This document shows positions 28,110 to 36,493 of a DNA stretch of 36,493 nt, piece after piece. The position numbers and the translations under genes were made by a program. The notes under the pieces were generated by a model that saw only the letters and a program-made list of their open reading frames with translations, made no database searches and was not told the origin of the DNA. How positions within the stretch are numbered: the first letter of the stretch is position 1; every line of letters starts with the position of its first letter. Source of the DNA: Nitrospirota bacterium (GTDB lineage: Bacteria > Nitrospirota > JAOUDF01); assembly GCA_029859385.1 (NCBI GenBank), contig JAOUDF010000004.1, positions 1-36,493 of the forward strand, in the 5' to 3' direction.

Positions 28110-31100
28110 ATGCAGACCGATACCCTCCATATCCTGCCTTCCTCTCTCTCGGTTCTCCGGCATGAACGCGATGCGCTCCTCAAGGCCCCAGGCGGCACAC
28201 TTGGTGGAACCCGGTACCTGACGCTGCCCCAGCTTGCGGAACGGATTGCCGGCGCACCTTTTGAAGGAAACCGCATCGAAGGATTCGGGAAAAAAGCCCT
28301 CCTTGCCAGCATCTGCAGGAAACGTGAGGCAGGCAGCGCCTCTTACGCAGGAGGGTCGGGTACTCTACGCCTGCTTCTCTCGCTCATTGAGGAGCTAAGG
28401 GCCGCCGGTGTATCGCCCCGGCAGTTCGACGAGGCCACATCGACCCTTTTCCCTCCCCTTCGAGAGAAATACAAGGGTATCGCGGAGCTATACGGTTGCT
28501 TCGAGGCGGAGATGGAACGGCTTGGGCTGTGCGACCAGACCACACTCTACCGCCGTGCCATCGAACGGGTGTCCGGCGGCTTCATACCTCCTGTGCTGCA
28601 AGGCGTGCGAGAGCTCCGGGTATCCGATATCTATGACCTTACCTGGCTCCAGGTAGAGCTGCTGGGAGCCCTTGCCCGAGTGGTCAGCGTCTTTATCACG
28701 CTTCCGTGGGACCCCTCTAGGGCTTCGGTCTTCGGCGCCGTCTCCGGCACCCTGTCCCGCTTTGAGGCATTGGGGGGCGAGAACCTCCGGCTGGAGGTCG
28801 AGTTCGACGACCTCTGCGGCACTGACAACCTTTCCCCGCTTCGCCGCCGTTTCCTTTCCACGAGCCCGACTGCTCTGCCTTCCGCCGAGCTGCCCAGGGT
28901 CATCACCGCCCGGGGCCACTACCCCCAGTGCGAAGCCATCGGCCGCGAGGTGCGCCTGCTGCTGGATGACGGCGTTTCTCCCACCGACATATTCGTGGCC
29001 TTCCGCGATCTTTCGGTCTACGGCCCTATGATGGAGGACGTCTTCCGTCGCTACCGCATCCCTCTCTCCTTCCGTCGCGGCATGCCTCTGGCTATGTCGC
29101 CGCTGGTAAAGGCGGCACTGGCAGTCTTTGAGGTCATCGGGAGCCGCTTCGAGCGGGAGGAGATGCTCCGGCTGTTGAAATCGGGCTATTTCGAACCCTT
29201 CGTCAAAAAAGCCGACGGCTCTCCCTGTACTCCGGAAGAGGTGGAGGGACATGTCCTCCAGGCCGGAATTATCGACGACCGGGAGGGCGGCGGCTGGGAA
29301 CAGCGCCTCCGCGCCTATGCAGCCAAAGAGGGGTCGCCTGATATCAACGCCTTGCGGGAGGGGGTGTCTGCCTGCCTGCTAAGGCTCAAGGCCCTCGGTA
29401 AACCGATGCCGGTGACCGATTTCGGTGATGTCTTTCGCCGTTATCTCCGAAATGCCGGTCTCTATCGCATGGCGCTCATCCCCGGCGAGACCTTCGAGCG
29501 GGATGCCCGCTCCCTGGGGCTCCTGGAGGAAACCATTTTGGAAATAGCGGAGATATACCGAAGACTGGGTGATACGGAGCCGGTGACCGCCCCTCAATTC
29601 TACCGTCTTCTCCTGTCGGCCATGGAGGGGAAGTCACTGGGCAGCCCCGCGGAGGAAGGGGTGGCCGTACTGAGTTTTCACGACCTGCGGGGGTTGAGCG
29701 CGCCCCGCCTGTTCCTCGGCGGACTCAACGAGGGGGAGGCGCCTGCTCCCTCCGCTCCCGACCCGCTGATGCCCGATACCGAGCGGCAGGCACTCAACAG
29801 CGCCCTCAGGAAAAAGGTCTTTCGCGCCACAAACGAACAGGCCCAGTCTGAGCCGCTCCTCTTCGCCATGGCCCTGGCTGCGGGGGAGCGGATAACCTTT
29901 TCCTGGTCCTGCACCGATATTTCCGGTCGCGAGACCCTCCCCTCCTTTTTCCTGAGGGAACTGGGCATTACCCATGACCGAAAGGAACCGGCTGCCGGTT
30001 TCGCCCCGCTGGCCGATGCCATGGAACCACAGGAGGTGGAGACAGCCCTCTTCCGTAACCTGTTCGGCCGTTCCCGCGTCGATGAGGAAGGCTTGTCCGG
30101 CGCCCTCACGCGGCTCCTGCCGGAACGGCTGGCTTCGCTGCCCTCAATGATGGAGACCGTGCGGCGCGAGGCCCTGCGGCAGGTCGTCGAACAGGACGGC
30201 GCAGTGACGGCGGGCCCCTTCTCCGGCCGTCTTTCGGGCGACGACATCCGGCGGATACTCCGGGAGCGCGTCTTCCCCGACATCCAGCCCTGGAGCGCCA
30301 CCGCAATGGAGCAGTATGCCGCCTGTCCCTACGTATTCTTCTCTCAAAGGGTGCTGGGGATACTGGAGGAGGAAAAGCCTTCGCTGGAGATGGAGCGGAG
30401 CGAGGAAGGGAGCCTGGTCCACGCCGCCCTCCGCGAAGGATTCCAGCGCTTGTACGACAAGAAATTGGTACCGCTCACCGGCAGGCCCGAGGAAAGAGAA
30501 GTCTTTTTCGAGGCAGCAAATCAGGTTATCCGCCGATGGGAGGAGGAACGTTCCACGGGGAACATGGTGTTGTGGCAGGCGCGGAAAAAGGAGCTGCTGA
30601 CCGTGCTGGGGTGGATGCTCGATCACGAACCGGCCCTCGAGGCGGATGGTTTCATCCCCTCGCGGTTTGAGGCAGCCTTCGGCGATGAGGCCAGCCCCAT
30701 GACCCTGACCGGTCTGCAGGGGGAGCAGGTGGCGCTTAAGGGGAGGATCGACCGGATTGACCTCAAACCCGACGGGCTGCGGGTGGTGGACTATAAGCAC
30801 AGCAGCAGCCTCGACAAGAAGGCCATGACCAACCCCGATACCTGGGGGGTGTCGTCGTTCCAGCTCCCGGTCTATCTTATGGCGGCAAAGCGGCTTTTCC
30901 CGGAACATGCGGTGCATATCGATGCCCTCATCTATCTGCTCAAGAAGTACGACAAGCCATGGCAGTCCAGCGGCGACCCGTCGGAGCTGCTGACGGAGAA
31001 TTCCGAAAGACGCCGGGCGCTGATGAACGAGGGTGCTCCGGCCTTTATCGACCGAGCCATAGCCCTGGTCGAGAGGATACGGAGCGGCGAGTTTGCCGTC

Positions 31101-31187
31101 TGGCCCATGGAATGCCCCGACTACTGCGACTATCGCGGCATCTGCCGGTATGAGAAGAGGGGGGAGGGGAGTGTCAATGCCGAATGA
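28110..31187 (+). CDS. addB: AddB-like PD-(D/E)XK nuclease / inactivated helicase subunit
   Basis: 1025 aa; PWSATAMEQYAACPYVFFSQRVLG, GSLVHAALREGF, nuclease core GRIDRIDLKPDGLRVVDYKHSS, terminal CPDYCDYRGICRYEKRG (AddB-type Fe-S cysteines). Confidence 0.85.
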   Translation: MQTDTLHILPSSLSVLRHERDALLKAPGGTLGGTRYLTLPQLAERIAGAPFEGNRIEGFGKKALLASICRKREAGSASYAGGSGTLRLLLSLIEELRAAGVSPRQFDEATSTLFPPLREKYKGIAELYGCFEAEMERLGLCDQTTLYRRAIERVSGGFIPPVLQGVRELRVSDIYDLTWLQVELLGALARVVSVFITLPWDPSRASVFGAVSGTLSRFEALGGENLRLEVEFDDLCGTDNLSPLRRRFLSTSPTALPSAELPRVITARGHYPQCEAIGREVRLLLDDGVSPTDIFVAFRDLSVYGPMMEDVFRRYRIPLSFRRGMPLAMSPLVKAALAVFEVIGSRFEREEMLRLLKSGYFEPFVKKADGSPCTPEEVEGHVLQAGIIDDREGGGWEQRLRAYAAKEGSPDINALREGVSACLLRLKALGKPMPVTDFGDVFRRYLRNAGLYRMALIPGETFERDARSLGLLEETILEIAEIYRRLGDTEPVTAPQFYRLLLSAMEGKSLGSPAEEGVAVLSFHDLRGLSAPRLFLGGLNEGEAPAPSAPDPLMPDTERQALNSALRKKVFRATNEQAQSEPLLFAMALAAGERITFSWSCTDISGRETLPSFFLRELGITHDRKEPAAGFAPLADAMEPQEVETALFRNLFGRSRVDEEGLSGALTRLLPERLASLPSMMETVRREALRQVVEQDGAVTAGPFSGRLSGDDIRRILRERVFPDIQPWSATAMEQYAACPYVFFSQRVLGILEEEKPSLEMERSEEGSLVHAALREGFQRLYDKKLVPLTGRPEEREVFFEAANQVIRRWEEERSTGNMVLWQARKKELLTVLGWMLDHEPALEADGFIPSRFEAAFGDEASPMTLTGLQGEQVALKGRIDRIDLKPDGLRVVDYKHSSSLDKKAMTNPDTWGVSSFQLPVYLMAAKRLFPEHAVHIDALIYLLKKYDKPWQSSGDPSELLTENSERRRALMNEGAPAFIDRAIALVERIRSGEFAVWPMECPDYCDYRGICRYEKRGEGSVNAE

Positions 31188-31257
31188 AACCCGTTCGGGA
31201 ATGATCACCGAGTTTACCGAAGACCTCTGCGTCGCGGCGGGAGCAGGGAATCGATAG
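31177..31257 (+). pseudogene. addA: Truncated 5' end of an AddA-like UvrD-family helicase gene
   Basis: ATG overlaps the addB stop by 11 nt; peptide MPNETRSGMITEFTEDLCVAAGAGNR*; ITEFTEDLCVAAGAG looks like a UvrD/AddA N-terminus whose Walker A (expected AGAGTGKT) is interrupted. Confidence 0.7.
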
Positions 31258-31430: not shown

Positions 31431-32402
31431 GTGACAGTGGAACGGACGGAGCGATTTCACCGCATCGAACAACTACTCAAGTCTTGCCGTACCGTGCCTC
31501 TGAGAGCGATGGTCAATGACCTTGAGGTCTCGCCGGCTACCGTCAAGCGAGATCTCGAATATCTGCGTAACCGCCTGAATGTCCCAATTGTGTGGGTCCG
31601 GGAGAGGCGGGGCTACATCCTCGACTATGAAGCGCCTCGCAGCGAACTCCCCGGCTTGTGGTTCGGCAGTGCCGAGGCCCATGCCCTCCTCTCCATGGAA
31701 CACCTACTCGAAAACCTTCAGCCGGGGCTCCTCACCCAGCATATCGATCCGCTGAGAAAGCGCATCGTCGCGCTCCTCGAAAAGGGCGATCATTCAGCAG
31801 AAGAAATCAGGCAGCGCATCCGCGTATTGCCCATGGCTTCGCGCCGCGTTGAGTCAAAACATTTCGCGGCAATCGCCGCCGCTCTCCTGCAGCGTAAACG
31901 GCTACATATCACCTACCAGAGCCGTACCAGAGACGAAAAAACAGGAAGGGAAGTGTCGCCCCAACGGCTCGTCCACTACCGTGACAACTGGTATCTCGAC
32001 GCCTGGTGCCACATGCGAAAAGAACTGAGGTCCTTCGCCGTCGACCGTATTGCCTTTACAAAGCTGCTGGATAAAAAGGCCCGCAACGTATCGGAGAGAC
32101 TGCTCGACAAGGTGCTCGCCTCGGGCTACGGCATTATTTCGGGGCAAAAGACAAAAACCGCACGGCTACGCTTCTCCGCCGAGGTATCCCGCTGGGTGTC
32201 TGACGAGCAGTGGCATCCGAGGCAAAAAGGATGGTTCGAGGGCGAGCGCTGGCTGCTTGAGTTGCCCTACTCCGGGGATACTGAACTCCTAATGGACATT
32301 CTTCGCTACGGCCCGGATGTAGCGGTTGTTAGCCCGCCGGAGCTGAGAGAGAAGGTTGTCGAAAAAATGCGTGAAACGCTGGAGATGTACGAAAATGAAT
32401 GA
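31431..32402 (+). CDS. HTH-WYL domain transcriptional regulator
   Basis: 323 aa, GTG start; N-terminal winged HTH (VPLRAMVNDLEVSPATVKRDLEYLRNRLNVPIVWVRERRGYIL), WYL-type core (KRLHITYQSRTRDEKTGREVSPQRLVHYRDNWYLDAWCHMRKELRSFAVDRI). Confidence 0.9.
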   Translation: MTVERTERFHRIEQLLKSCRTVPLRAMVNDLEVSPATVKRDLEYLRNRLNVPIVWVRERRGYILDYEAPRSELPGLWFGSAEAHALLSMEHLLENLQPGLLTQHIDPLRKRIVALLEKGDHSAEEIRQRIRVLPMASRRVESKHFAAIAAALLQRKRLHITYQSRTRDEKTGREVSPQRLVHYRDNWYLDAWCHMRKELRSFAVDRIAFTKLLDKKARNVSERLLDKVLASGYGIISGQKTKTARLRFSAEVSRWVSDEQWHPRQKGWFEGERWLLELPYSGDTELLMDILRYGPDVAVVSPPELREKVVEKMRETLEMYENE

Positions 32403-32503
32403 TTAGCGAGTGTATCACGTGGTGAGGCTGTGGGTGTGGTAGTGTAACCATGCTCGAAGAACGGTTCTTGTTTTTAAGGGACTTCTCAACCACGGGAGGG
32501 CAT

Positions 32504-33049
32504 ATGAAAAGGTTGACCACAGCGGAACTCAATCAACTCCGCGATAACCTTAAAAAGAGCGACAGAGAACATAACGGCGAGAGGGTAGAGACGGAGAACA
32601 GGATATTCTGGCAATCTAAATTGGTCTACTGGGCATCAAAAGCTCCGCGAACCAGGGTGTCGGTAGAGATAGTCGACCATTTCGACGCCCGGGGGATGAA
32701 ATGTATTTACGGCCGTGGCGATCATTTCCAGCGGAGCTATCACATGGATATCTGGAAGACCAGCAAAGGGCGCGTTCTGATGCGATTCTGGTCTCGGAAC
32801 ATAGATGTTGAATGGTGCTCATACGAGGTCAAGGGGCTCGATTTGCGCAAGATACCTGATTTGCCAGGTCCTGGCAGTTATGCAGATTGGTGGATACCTA
32901 AGAGCGTGCGCGCCGAGTATGATGCATGGATATTGTATGATTTCTCGTCAGATGAAATCCCGGATTGGTTGAATGGCGACAGGGAAAAGTGCACAACAAT
33001 AGAAATGTTCCGGGTAAGGAAGTCGAGTATGGACACGGCGGATGTTTAA
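32504..33049 (+). CDS. Hypothetical protein
   Basis: Start MKRLTTAELNQLRDNLKK with SD gggaggg; Trp-rich; no family recognised. Confidence 0.7.
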   Translation: MKRLTTAELNQLRDNLKKSDREHNGERVETENRIFWQSKLVYWASKAPRTRVSVEIVDHFDARGMKCIYGRGDHFQRSYHMDIWKTSKGRVLMRFWSRNIDVEWCSYEVKGLDLRKIPDLPGPGSYADWWIPKSVRAEYDAWILYDFSSDEIPDWLNGDREKCTTIEMFRVRKSSMDTADV

Positions 33050-33111: not shown

Positions 33112-34404
33112 ATGGTTAACAGTAGTTGGGGCTTACTTGGTCTGGAATCTCTTTCTAGTGCTCGTCGCACACGCTCGCTCGGTGTGGGAGCCGCCGTGCG
33201 TATATTCAATGACCTTGCTGTACCAGGAATGGGGAATGTCTGGTTCGGTAAACAGTTATTTCTGGCAACGCTGGGCGTAGCGGTAGTGGACCTTGCCAGA
33301 AGCAACGGCACACAACTCCAAAACATTGAGGTAGCGAACGCTATCGAAGCGATGGCTTGCTGGTTGGCATTAAAGGATAACGGCTGGAAATCTGATCCAC
33401 GTCTGCGCGGTGCAGAGAAAATGAAGGGCGAGAGAAAGGTACCTTCCTTTAAGTATGCTCGCAAACGAGAGTTTTATGTAACTCAGCCTATGCGCATGGC
33501 GACAGTGCAGCCACTTCCGGCGCTTGGTGTTGTTGAAACCGCAGGCAGCCGGTTCAATGCTTTTACATGTTCGCGGTACGGGCATGACTTCATCGAAGCA
33601 ATGTGCATTGATTATAAAGATATTATTGAGCATTTGAGAGGTTGGGTACGAGGCGACGCTGTGAAAGTGGCTAAACTGCGAACGGTGTTGTCGCCACTTG
33701 AACAAATGCCCAAGGGCGCCAGAGAGTTTTTGAAAGAGAGGCTGATTCAAGGCGGTATTCAGGAAAGTGACACGAACAAAGGGCGACGTCGTGCGGCCCT
33801 TGCCTGGGTCGAGTCTCTGCGGGAACACCCAACCCAGGAACTAGCCTGGAGAAGCAAGCCCCTGGTGATTGATGATGCTCATTGGAGCGACCTGCACGCC
33901 GGTGCTCGTTTCTTCATAGCGCGGGACGCCGCGATTCGTGTGCTGGATCGGCTTGAGACATGTGTCGACAATCAGGCGGAGCAGCGCTTCTCGCTAGTTG
34001 ATCGGATACCCAAAGACATCAGAGAGGCGATTAACTCCTTGCGAGTCTGCGCTGACACCTTTTTACAAATCCAGCACAGGAACGAACTTGCAAACGCTTT
34101 TTGCGAGGAATGTAGGGATTTGGATGATCTGAGACTGCTCGCTAAACTCGTCGGACGTGACAACCACGGGCTTCGCATTCAGGATCATATTATCCTGCCC
34201 GGCCCTGCATTCAGGGGTGAAACGAAATCCGGTCAATCTCAAATGGAGGAAGAGGGCGGCGAGAGTGTCCAGGGTGCCATCAAGTGGCCGGAAGGGATTT
34301 CGTACCGGATTCAAAATTTATTTCTCCTGAATCTCGATCTTCACGGTGAACTTTCCGAGTGGCTAGGTGCGGCGACTGTTTCTGCTGCTGGCGAGGAGGA
34401 ATAA
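33112..34404 (+). CDS. Hypothetical protein, 430 aa
   Basis: Long ORF ending 2 nt before the next start; no recognisable family. Confidence 0.85.
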   Translation: MVNSSWGLLGLESLSSARRTRSLGVGAAVRIFNDLAVPGMGNVWFGKQLFLATLGVAVVDLARSNGTQLQNIEVANAIEAMACWLALKDNGWKSDPRLRGAEKMKGERKVPSFKYARKREFYVTQPMRMATVQPLPALGVVETAGSRFNAFTCSRYGHDFIEAMCIDYKDIIEHLRGWVRGDAVKVAKLRTVLSPLEQMPKGAREFLKERLIQGGIQESDTNKGRRRAALAWVESLREHPTQELAWRSKPLVIDDAHWSDLHAGARFFIARDAAIRVLDRLETCVDNQAEQRFSLVDRIPKDIREAINSLRVCADTFLQIQHRNELANAFCEECRDLDDLRLLAKLVGRDNHGLRIQDHIILPGPAFRGETKSGQSQMEEEGGESVQGAIKWPEGISYRIQNLFLLNLDLHGELSEWLGAATVSAAGEEE

Positions 34405-34406
34405 AC

Positions 34407-36410
34407 ATGCCTGCTAAGCCGTATATACCTCTGTCGTTGGCGCAACATTTTGAGGCGCCAGTTGCATATCTGGGCTGCTTCGGCTGGGTGTGTGGTTATT
34501 CCGCCGATGCGATATTTATGGACGATGCCGCGGAGCGCTTCACGCGACAAACTCATGCGCAGCGTGCATATAATGGCAGAATCACTTTGGCGATGATGCT
34601 TGACCCTGGTATCTCGCAAATCGATGTGCCGGGTGTGGCGCACTTACCAATCAGAGATATCAATGAGAAACCATTCCGGTTGATGCATGCAAAGGTTGCT
34701 ATTCTCGGTTTCCGTCATGAAACCGACGCAGAGCAGTGGCAATTGCGATTGATCGTTTCCACCGGCAACTGGACGCGTGAGACGCTGGAGAAGACTCTCG
34801 ATTTGGCTTGGCGCGTTGATCTTGCCAGCGATGATTTGAAAAATTCAAGTAATACTATCCGCCAGGCTTGTGCGGATATCAGGTCGGCCGAGGATTTGTT
34901 TAGTTGGCTTTGCAACTACTACGACACACGAATTCTGGATGCATTGCCACCGGGACGAACGGATAGTGAATCAGTCCATGCCAAACGCTTGTTCGAATCC
35001 TGGATTATGCAAGCCGCGGCGAAGGCTGGTTGGGCGAAATCTCGCTTCTTCGACACTCGAGAAAAGCCCCTCCTTGCCCAACTTCCGGCGATGATCGAAA
35101 AGGTGGGCAAGGCCGCCAAGCGCAATTACCTTGCGCTGGGTTCAGGTTTTTACGAAGCCACATCAGAGAATAATGTTATTCCAGTTGTACTCGGCAAAAT
35201 TGTAGAGACATTGAAACACAAACAGCTGCTGACAGCGAATCCGGAGGTGGATGTCTTCGTTAATCCCAACGCCTGTCAGGCGGTCGCTGCTTCCTATCAG
35301 GCATTGATTGAGGCAGGCTTTACTGTCAGACCGGCTGGACAACCAGACTTAGGCCAGAAGCTTCAACGTACACTACATGCCAAGTTTATCTTCGGTGCCA
35401 ACTGTCGAGAAAACTCTGCACTTTGCAATAGTGCTTGGCTGTATCTTGGATCAGGCAACCTGACCTCGCCTGGATTTACCAACAAAGCTTCAACTAATGG
35501 AGGAAACCTGGAGGCCGGTGTCGTTCTCATACCAGAGGATATATATTGGCGTGACGGCAGAGGCGTAAAGTCTGAGTGCGTGATCACCAATCTGCTGCCG
35601 GTACAATGGGAGACCGATGTCTCAGACTTGCCCGAGTCGTTAGACAAAGGTGCCGACATGCCGGAAAGAGATTGTCAGTTTGTTGCGGCTCCTGTGGCTT
35701 GGTTGTACTGGAACGAGAATGCGGATAAGCGATGGTTGACAGCAGCCGATGATGCAACTGTACCATTTGAGGTTCTAGATGATGGCGGTGAGCCATGTTA
35801 TTCAGACGGGAAACGCCGATTCTTATGGGTAGGCAATCGCCCTCGGTTTGTGCGGCTTCGCTGGGATGTCGGCGGCCAAATGCAAGAATCCACGGTGTCC
35901 ATACTTGATGAGTACGGCCGGTTGGCCGCAACGGCATTACCGGAAATCGATCTCGATGAAGCGTGGTGGCAGTTGGCCAACTTTCCCATGCCGCCAGACG
36001 ACGAAGAGTTGGTGAACGAAGATGATCAAGTTGCACAATCAGCAACCAGGCCACAATTAGCAAGACCAACACTGGCTGCTGTTTATCCGATAAGACAGAT
36101 GATGCAATTGGTTGAGAATATCGCCGCCAAACAAACGGCGATATCCGAGGTCGACTGGGCATCATGGTGCACACGACTCGAACAATGCTTGATTCAAGCT
36201 ACTGACAGTTCGGTTGTCGAGGTATTCAGGGAGAAGATAAAGATTAATCCGCTCAGTCCGCTATGGCATGCACCTTTCCGCCCTGCATTTGCGGAAACAG
36301 CATACACCGAAGAAGGACAGCGTTATGAGGATGCGTTGCGAAGAGTAGAGATGGAATGGAATGTGGCGTCCTTGACAAAAATAGGGGGCTGCGATGAAAC
36401 AGGTGTTTAA
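34407..36410 (+). CDS. PLD-superfamily protein with Tdp1-like paired HxK...GN motifs
   Basis: Start MPAKPYIPLSLAQHF with SD gaggagga; motif 1 MHAKVAILGF...VSTGNWT, motif 2 LHAKFIFGAN...GSGNLTSPGF...NLEAGVVLIPE. Confidence 0.85.
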   Translation: MPAKPYIPLSLAQHFEAPVAYLGCFGWVCGYSADAIFMDDAAERFTRQTHAQRAYNGRITLAMMLDPGISQIDVPGVAHLPIRDINEKPFRLMHAKVAILGFRHETDAEQWQLRLIVSTGNWTRETLEKTLDLAWRVDLASDDLKNSSNTIRQACADIRSAEDLFSWLCNYYDTRILDALPPGRTDSESVHAKRLFESWIMQAAAKAGWAKSRFFDTREKPLLAQLPAMIEKVGKAAKRNYLALGSGFYEATSENNVIPVVLGKIVETLKHKQLLTANPEVDVFVNPNACQAVAASYQALIEAGFTVRPAGQPDLGQKLQRTLHAKFIFGANCRENSALCNSAWLYLGSGNLTSPGFTNKASTNGGNLEAGVVLIPEDIYWRDGRGVKSECVITNLLPVQWETDVSDLPESLDKGADMPERDCQFVAAPVAWLYWNENADKRWLTAADDATVPFEVLDDGGEPCYSDGKRRFLWVGNRPRFVRLRWDVGGQMQESTVSILDEYGRLAATALPEIDLDEAWWQLANFPMPPDDEELVNEDDQVAQSATRPQLARPTLAAVYPIRQMMQLVENIAAKQTAISEVDWASWCTRLEQCLIQATDSSVVEVFREKIKINPLSPLWHAPFRPAFAETAYTEEGQRYEDALRRVEMEWNVASLTKIGGCDETGV

Positions 36411-36493
36411 GTGGGAGCAGGTGGCGGCTCGTTTGGAGAAATATGCGGGCGAACAGAAAGATATAGCTAACAAGAAGGGCGAAGGTGCTTGCA
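36394..36493 (+). CDS. N-terminus of a further operon gene, truncated by window edge
   Basis: ATG at 36394 overlaps the end of the PLD-like gene by 17 nt; MKQVFKWEQVAARLEKYAGEQKDIANKKGEGAC... open to the end. Confidence 0.65.
   Translation, partial: MKQVFKWEQVAARLEKYAGEQKDIANKKGEGAC

Follow-up and report, generated by a model that had tools for sequence, protein, structure and literature searches.

A putative PLD-superfamily nuclease gene in a mobile Azaca-like three-gene module

Near the right end of the window (the whole 36,493-nucleotide stretch of Nitrospirota DNA analysed here) lies a gene for a PLD-superfamily protein with two motifs of the HxK...N type. Such motifs raise the question of whether the protein is a repair enzyme of the Tdp1 type, as an earlier note on this DNA had proposed, or a nuclease with another role. 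Our comparisons indicate that the gene probably encodes the nuclease subunit of a putative mobile module of three genes for DNA-targeting defence, distantly related to Azaca. The features on which the argument is built are listed in Table 1.

Table 1. Features of the trio, of the insert that carries it and of its flanks
Feature	Position	Strand	Basis or remark
Chromosomal addB-like flanking gene, outside the trio	28110..31187	+	PDDEXK_1 6.5e-38
Left copy of the 51-bp direct repeat	31198..31248	+	blastn of flanks
HTH-WYL-WCX regulator, 323 aa, first gene of the insert	31431..32402	+	WYL 1.9e-23, WCX 1.7e-15
199-aa ORF inside the insert	32450..33049	+	in-frame ATG at 32504 also possible
Partner A, 430-aa protein, fold not recognised	33112..34404	+	co-occurrence with PLD gene; alignment A2
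PLD-superfamily nuclease-like protein, ZacB-like	34404..36410	+	ORF; PADLOC ZacB; PLDc_2; alignment of 9
Motif 1, HAKVAILGF...RLIVSTGNWT, H95 to T124	34686..34775	+	translation; H, K, N invariant 9/9
Motif 2, HAKFIF...YLGSGNLT, H325 to T354	35376..35465	+	translation; H, K, N invariant 9/9
Partner C (start), SNF2/RapA-type helicase	36394..36493	+	completed on contig C274
Right copy of the 51-bp direct repeat	G000:C274:2841-2891 (L003)		blastn of flanks

The PLD ORF encodes about 667 to 668 aa. It has an ATG at position 34407, and residues are numbered here from the codon at 34404, one codon ahead of this ATG. The translation contains, in frame, the two motifs that the earlier note had read, H95-A-K97...N122 (VSTGNWT) and H325-A-K327...N352 (LGSGNLT); the span given there for the feature, 34686-35471, includes both of them yet amounts to no more than about 40% of the gene. 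When nine members of the family, drawn from several phyla, were aligned, both motifs had H, A, K and N without exception (9/9), a degree of conservation far beyond chance. A conserved Asp in the HKD role, which the note had named as evidence against its reading, was sought at the corresponding position (H+7) and was found in none of the nine members; the residue there was G or H in motif 1 and A or G in motif 2. The HxKx4D signature of a canonical HKD phospholipase D was accordingly missing from both motifs in 9/9 members. The distance of exactly 27 residues between His and Asn, claimed for both motifs, is correct for this copy and is found only in it and its near copies, since the spacing across the family ranged from 26 to 31 in motif 1 and from 22 to 27 in motif 2. 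Farther downstream, in the NLEAGV stretch, N368, E370, G372 and V373 were invariant in the nine-member alignment.

Profile searches were then used for the family assignment. The PADLOC model for ZacB matched the window protein (6.5e-8) over residues 89-375, which correspond to the PLD core only and span both motifs, and it matched all nine family members, with a best value of 2.9e-9. The other PADLOC models, DrmC, PDC-M27B and PbeC, matched one member each at most, with E values of 0.01 or higher. The Pfam family PLDc_2 was detected in seven of the nine members; the match in the window protein (7.6e-5, 23.0 bits) was below the cut-off of 27. Membership in the PLD superfamily, as previously proposed, is thus borne out by the two invariant HxK motifs and the ZacB (PLD) profile found throughout the family. 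The C-terminal part of about 240 aa, which has no assigned function, lies outside the ZacB match. For comparison, we used authentic Azaca loci from Halomarina, Cronobacter, Agrobacterium and Rhizobium plasmids and from genomes of the window's phylum. In the literature, ZacC has been identified as a helicase and a PLD-like domain is listed among the components of Azaca (PMC12278908; PMC10952713). A profile of authentic ZacB aligned with that of the PLD family with a score of 51.7 over a segment that corresponds to the motif 1 region; the maximum was 24.1 with shuffled profiles, and the reversed profile gave 24.0. Motif 1 of authentic ZacB reads HPK...[ST]RN, with a spacing of 25 to 27, and lacks Asp at H+7; motif 2 reads HAK...GSxN, with a spacing of 20 to 23 and D (2/6), E (3/6) or L (1/6) at H+7. 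Judged by these comparisons, the PLD protein matches ZacB, the PLD component of Azaca, better than any other family.

Structural searches were also carried out. When the PDB was searched by sequence, neither the PLD protein alone nor the nine-member profile found a relevant solved structure. AlphaFold, run for the full protein and for the core with four sequences, gave mean pLDDT values of 45.4 and 39.9, and Foldseek found nothing significant with either of these low-confidence models (PLD3/PLD4 appeared only at E values of about 0.7 to 1.3). The first model showed, at low confidence, the succession strand-helix, HxK strand, strand-GN and helix roughly twice, in agreement with two PLD repeats.

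The genes next to the PLD gene form a set with it. Partner A, whose relatives have about 400 aa, is located directly upstream and had no significant Pfam, NCBIfam or PADLOC match. Partner C starts at the end of the window and is complete on the adjoining contig of the same genome (885 aa, G000:C274:47-2704), which overlaps the window end by 146 bases with 1 mismatch. Its product matched ResIII, Helicase_C and SNF2-rel_dom above cut-off, and Walker A, DEAH and motif VI are visible in the translation. When 72,556 plasmids were searched with the proteins, A and the PLD protein were found in an identical set of seven records, and the helicase in those seven plus two. The order A-PLD-helicase was kept in metagenome-assembled genomes of Planctomycetaceae (L004) and Acidobacteriia (L005), on plasmids of Pantoea, Haematobacter, Paracoccus, Leisingera, Fuscovulum and Desulfosarcina, and on one IMG/VR contig. 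Among 396, 347 and 343 genomes of three phyla, the trio was present in the source genome only, with no second member; phage records contained no trio PLD gene, and a DNA search of E. coli genomes with the Pantoea gene gave none. The trio is a rare, patchily distributed and horizontally transferred three-gene set. No description of an A-PLD-helicase gene set was found in a literature search.

Individual copies showed additional peculiarities. In Novosphingobium resinovorum (L010, 5137-8000), an insertion with transposase-like ORFs appears, according to our own reading, between the A and PLD genes. On the plasmid pAMI8 of Paracoccus aminophilus (L050, 6806-9638), only a C-terminal fragment of the trio helicase was seen, beside an IS5-family transposase, and this fragment is probably a decayed copy of the trio. 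In Paracoccus versutus (L008, 6756-9770), a single frame of 1004 aa runs through the A and PLD genes; this apparent fusion was rejected as evidence because, by comparison with locus L013, the reading frame probably changes close to the end of A.

In the source genome, the trio is found between addB and addA (L003), preceded by the gene for the WYL regulator and by the 199-aa ORF, for which neither a Pfam family nor a match in the 72,556 plasmids was found. The two copies of the 51-bp repeat are identical at 49 of 51 positions and bound a 7,942-bp insert in the 5' end of addA. The repeat comprises the first addA codons (ATGATCACCGAG...) as far as the Walker A region; with the right copy, addA has its full start, and the left copy forms a short stub running into a stop. 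Both copies are situated well within their contigs and so did not arise from the joining of the contigs. The GC content of the insert was 0.517/0.499, as compared with 0.626 for addB and 0.629 for addA. The flanking addB-like gene itself matched addB_Gpos with 6.3e-35, far below the cut-off. The arrangement suggests that the insert integrated at an attachment site resembling the beginning of addA. No recombinase was recognised in the 7,942-bp insert, and the search among addA relatives for an empty site found no close relative.

We also examined the neighbours of the trio at other loci. An AddB/AddA-like pair is located upstream of it in Haematobacter, Leisingera and Fuscovulum, and in Haematobacter the pair and the trio directly follow a BREX operon. 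In Novosphingobium an AddA-like gene lies upstream, and in Paracoccus and on the IMG/VR contig an AddB-like gene lies downstream. A PD-(D/E)XK protein and a UvrD-type helicase (AddB/AddA-like) precede authentic Azaca in Agrobacterium and Rhizobium. Pairs of this kind before the trio or Azaca were mapped at L007 (1029-6775), L009 (939-6688), L011 (985-6725), L047 (1862-7908) and L048 (1837-7889). The AddAB-like proteins of the Rhodobacterales type and of the Rhizobium type are not closely related (roughly 25 to 31% identity over part of AddA), which suggests more than one origin of the association. In L005, L006 and L012, no AddAB-like genes were annotated or seen next to the trio. An AAA ATPase with a PADLOC IetA match was present at the Pantoea and Desulfosarcina loci, and AAA proteins homologous to it (29 to 80% identity) were present at the Leisingera, Fuscovulum and IMG/VR loci. 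WYL regulators were found at all five of these loci and in the window, and an ADP-ribosylglycohydrolase was found in Leisingera and Fuscovulum, with a similar ORF on the IMG/VR contig according to our own reading of the sequence. These neighbours are the company of defence islands. Upstream of the trio, a conserved block of AAA ATPase, WYL and ADP-ribosylglycohydrolase genes was seen at L013 (1906-6596), L065 (6200-10196) and L066 (6876-11548), of the Rhodobacterales type; the ADP-ribosylglycohydrolase-like ORF of L013 has an N-terminal phosphatase-like motif, HCRGGLGRAG.

Could the PLD protein instead be a bacterial phosphodiesterase of the Tdp1 type, removing proteins or other blocking groups from DNA 3' ends? 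It has HxK...N in both halves of one chain (9/9) and an E-x-G-V stretch after motif 2, end processing would fit because the neighbouring AddAB-like enzymes act from DNA ends, and the Pfam family Tyr-DNA_phospho (PF06087) appeared below threshold in four of the nine members, with a best value of 1.4e-4. However, this match reached 20.3 bits in the window protein, under the gathering score of 22, and was confined to residues 88-172, the first half-site region, whereas ZacB matched every member and far better. The HxK...N pattern is not peculiar to Tdp1, because authentic ZacB proteins carry the same signatures; for this reason it is also not unusual for a defence operon, contrary to what had been supposed. 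A Glu residue following GSxN is common to PLD nucleases generally, so that E370, although invariant, does not single out Tdp1. The co-occurring SNF2 helicase, in turn, fits restriction-like systems. Membership in the Tdp1 family was therefore rejected on account of the sub-threshold Pfam score and the lower consistency across members than that of ZacB, and we regard an enzyme of this type as unlikely. The Tdp1 interpretation of the earlier note is over-specific; its placing of the gene in a defence-like operon, with a probable action on DNA, was judged right. Tdp1-like end cleaning by the PLD protein is conceivable, though not specifically indicated. A scheme built on it, in which an undescribed defence system would use the PLD protein to unblock or process DNA ends in a Tdp1-like manner and dedicated AddAB-like helicase-nucleases to degrade phage DNA, with the AAA ATPase, the WYL regulator and the ADP-ribosylglycohydrolase as optional parts, seems to us very unlikely. 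Hardly probable at all is a role as a DNA-repair accessory of the flanking addB and addA in double-strand-break repair of the host: the position between these genes, and AddAB-like genes beside other copies, would agree with it, but the insert is much lower in GC content and is bounded by the repeat derived from the 5' end of addA, no such genes were annotated or seen at the three loci named above, and the AddAB-like proteins are not closely related from one locus to another.

The relation of the trio to Azaca itself leaves two readings to be weighed. The trio may be a true Azaca, too divergent for the current models, in which A is ZacA and C is ZacC; we give this a chance slightly short of even, and it overlaps the main reading, which leaves the homology of A with ZacA and of C with ZacC undecided. 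From the gene order in the Azaca loci used for comparison, we take ZacA to be DUF6361, a family on which a literature search found nothing. In favour of true Azaca are the gene order, the similar sizes of A and B, the ZacB match in all members, the AddAB-like neighbours shared with Rhizobium and Agrobacterium Azaca, and an N-terminal LGxG...VPGxG block of A that resembles ZacA, though not significantly: 1 of 200 shuffles aligned as well, and the block was chosen post hoc. Over its full length, however, A was not above shuffles, 6 of 60 being as good; hhalign of A against ZacA gave an E value of 0.18, and no DUF6361 protein was recognised upstream of the ZacB-type PLD subunit. Partner C, with about 850 to 930 aa across the trios as against about 1050 aa for ZacC, is nearer to other SNF2 models, its PADLOC scores being 3.7e-21 for PDC-M27C, 2.1e-18 for DrmD and 5.1e-8 for ZacC. 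These same facts, an unmatched A and a helicase not specifically ZacC-like, together with recurrent partners of its own (AAA ATPase, WYL, ADP-ribosylglycohydrolase), would suit a separate defence system that has only the PLD nuclease in common with Azaca and in which A, PLD and SNF2 helicase were assembled independently. This is a finer version of the main reading and a tenable one, to which we lend somewhat less than even credence, and the ZacB similarity, the gene order and the AddAB-like association common to the trio and Azaca speak against it. We named the trio Azaca-like, not Azaca, because A over its full length resembled ZacA no better than shuffled sequences did and because the helicase prefers PDC-M27C and DrmD over ZacC.

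If the PLD gene belongs to a defence module distantly related to Azaca, as we prefer, the roles may be assigned by position: A would take the place of ZacA, the PLD protein would be the ZacB-like component B, and the SNF2-type helicase would take the place of ZacC. By analogy with characterised enzymes, the trio is most likely a helicase-coupled nuclease with A as a recognition or licensing factor. Both HxK...N half-sites belong to one chain and most likely combine into one active site that needs no metal; like BfiI and other PLD nucleases, it would break DNA by way of a phospho-histidine intermediate. BfiI is metal-independent and forms a covalent intermediate of this kind (PMC4081073). The three proteins may act as a complex against phage, with cutting gated by the ATP-driven activity of the helicase partner. 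The model for such gating is provided by R.CglI and R.NgoAVII, whose PLD nucleases cut DNA only with an SF2 ATPase partner and ATP, and in which mutation of the HxK histidine abolishes cutting (PMC4267653). Partner A probably recognises the target or licenses the activity, and the AddB/AddA-like nuclease-helicase adjacent to many copies could degrade DNA from the ends produced.

The constant parts of an Azaca-like module would then be the PLD double half-site and the helicase, A being the part that differs most. The repeated link to AddAB-like end-resecting enzymes suggests a division of labour in which DNA is cut and then degraded; a literature search found no description of the Azaca mechanism. 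Bacterial PLD proteins with 'HKN' motifs should not be taken as Tdp1 repair enzymes by default.

Among known systems, BfiI, NgoFVII, CglI and NgoAVII share with the trio HxK active sites in a nuclease of a restriction setting, and CglI and NgoAVII also share the need for an SF2 helicase-like partner (PMC4267653). BfiI and R.NgoAVII differ in having one PLD half-site per chain, in dimerising and in a B3 DNA-binding domain, whereas the trio protein has both half-sites in one chain, and no Pfam match to B3 was found in the window protein. CglI and NgoAVII include a methyltransferase gene, and none was found in the insert. Tdp1 shares the HKN motifs in both halves of one chain and the E-x-G-V after motif 2, but the spacing from His to Asn is 20 and 23 in the human enzyme (PMC6895789), as against 26 to 31 and 22 to 27 in the family, and the trio gene is embedded in a nuclease-helicase operon and scores below the Pfam cut-off. 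DISARM likewise has a PLD protein, DrmC, in a helicase-containing defence system; here the DrmC match was limited to one member (E value of 0.01), and neither the trio proteins nor the rest of the insert matched DUF1998, so that the set of DrmA helicase, DrmB (DUF1998) and DrmC is not present. PDC-M27 supplies the best PADLOC match to C, PDC-M27C, and PDC-M27B was matched by one PLD member (0.018) but not by the window protein; no PDC-M27B loci were found for comparison. Azaca is like the trio in its gene order and in the sizes of A and B, in a PLD subunit with two HxK...N half-sites in one chain and in AddB/AddA-like neighbours at some loci. It differs in its DUF6361 protein and longer helicase, in a motif 1 of HPK...SRN or TRN as opposed to HAK...STGN, and in the H+7 residue of motif 2, which is D or E in 5/6 ZacB proteins and never in the trio.
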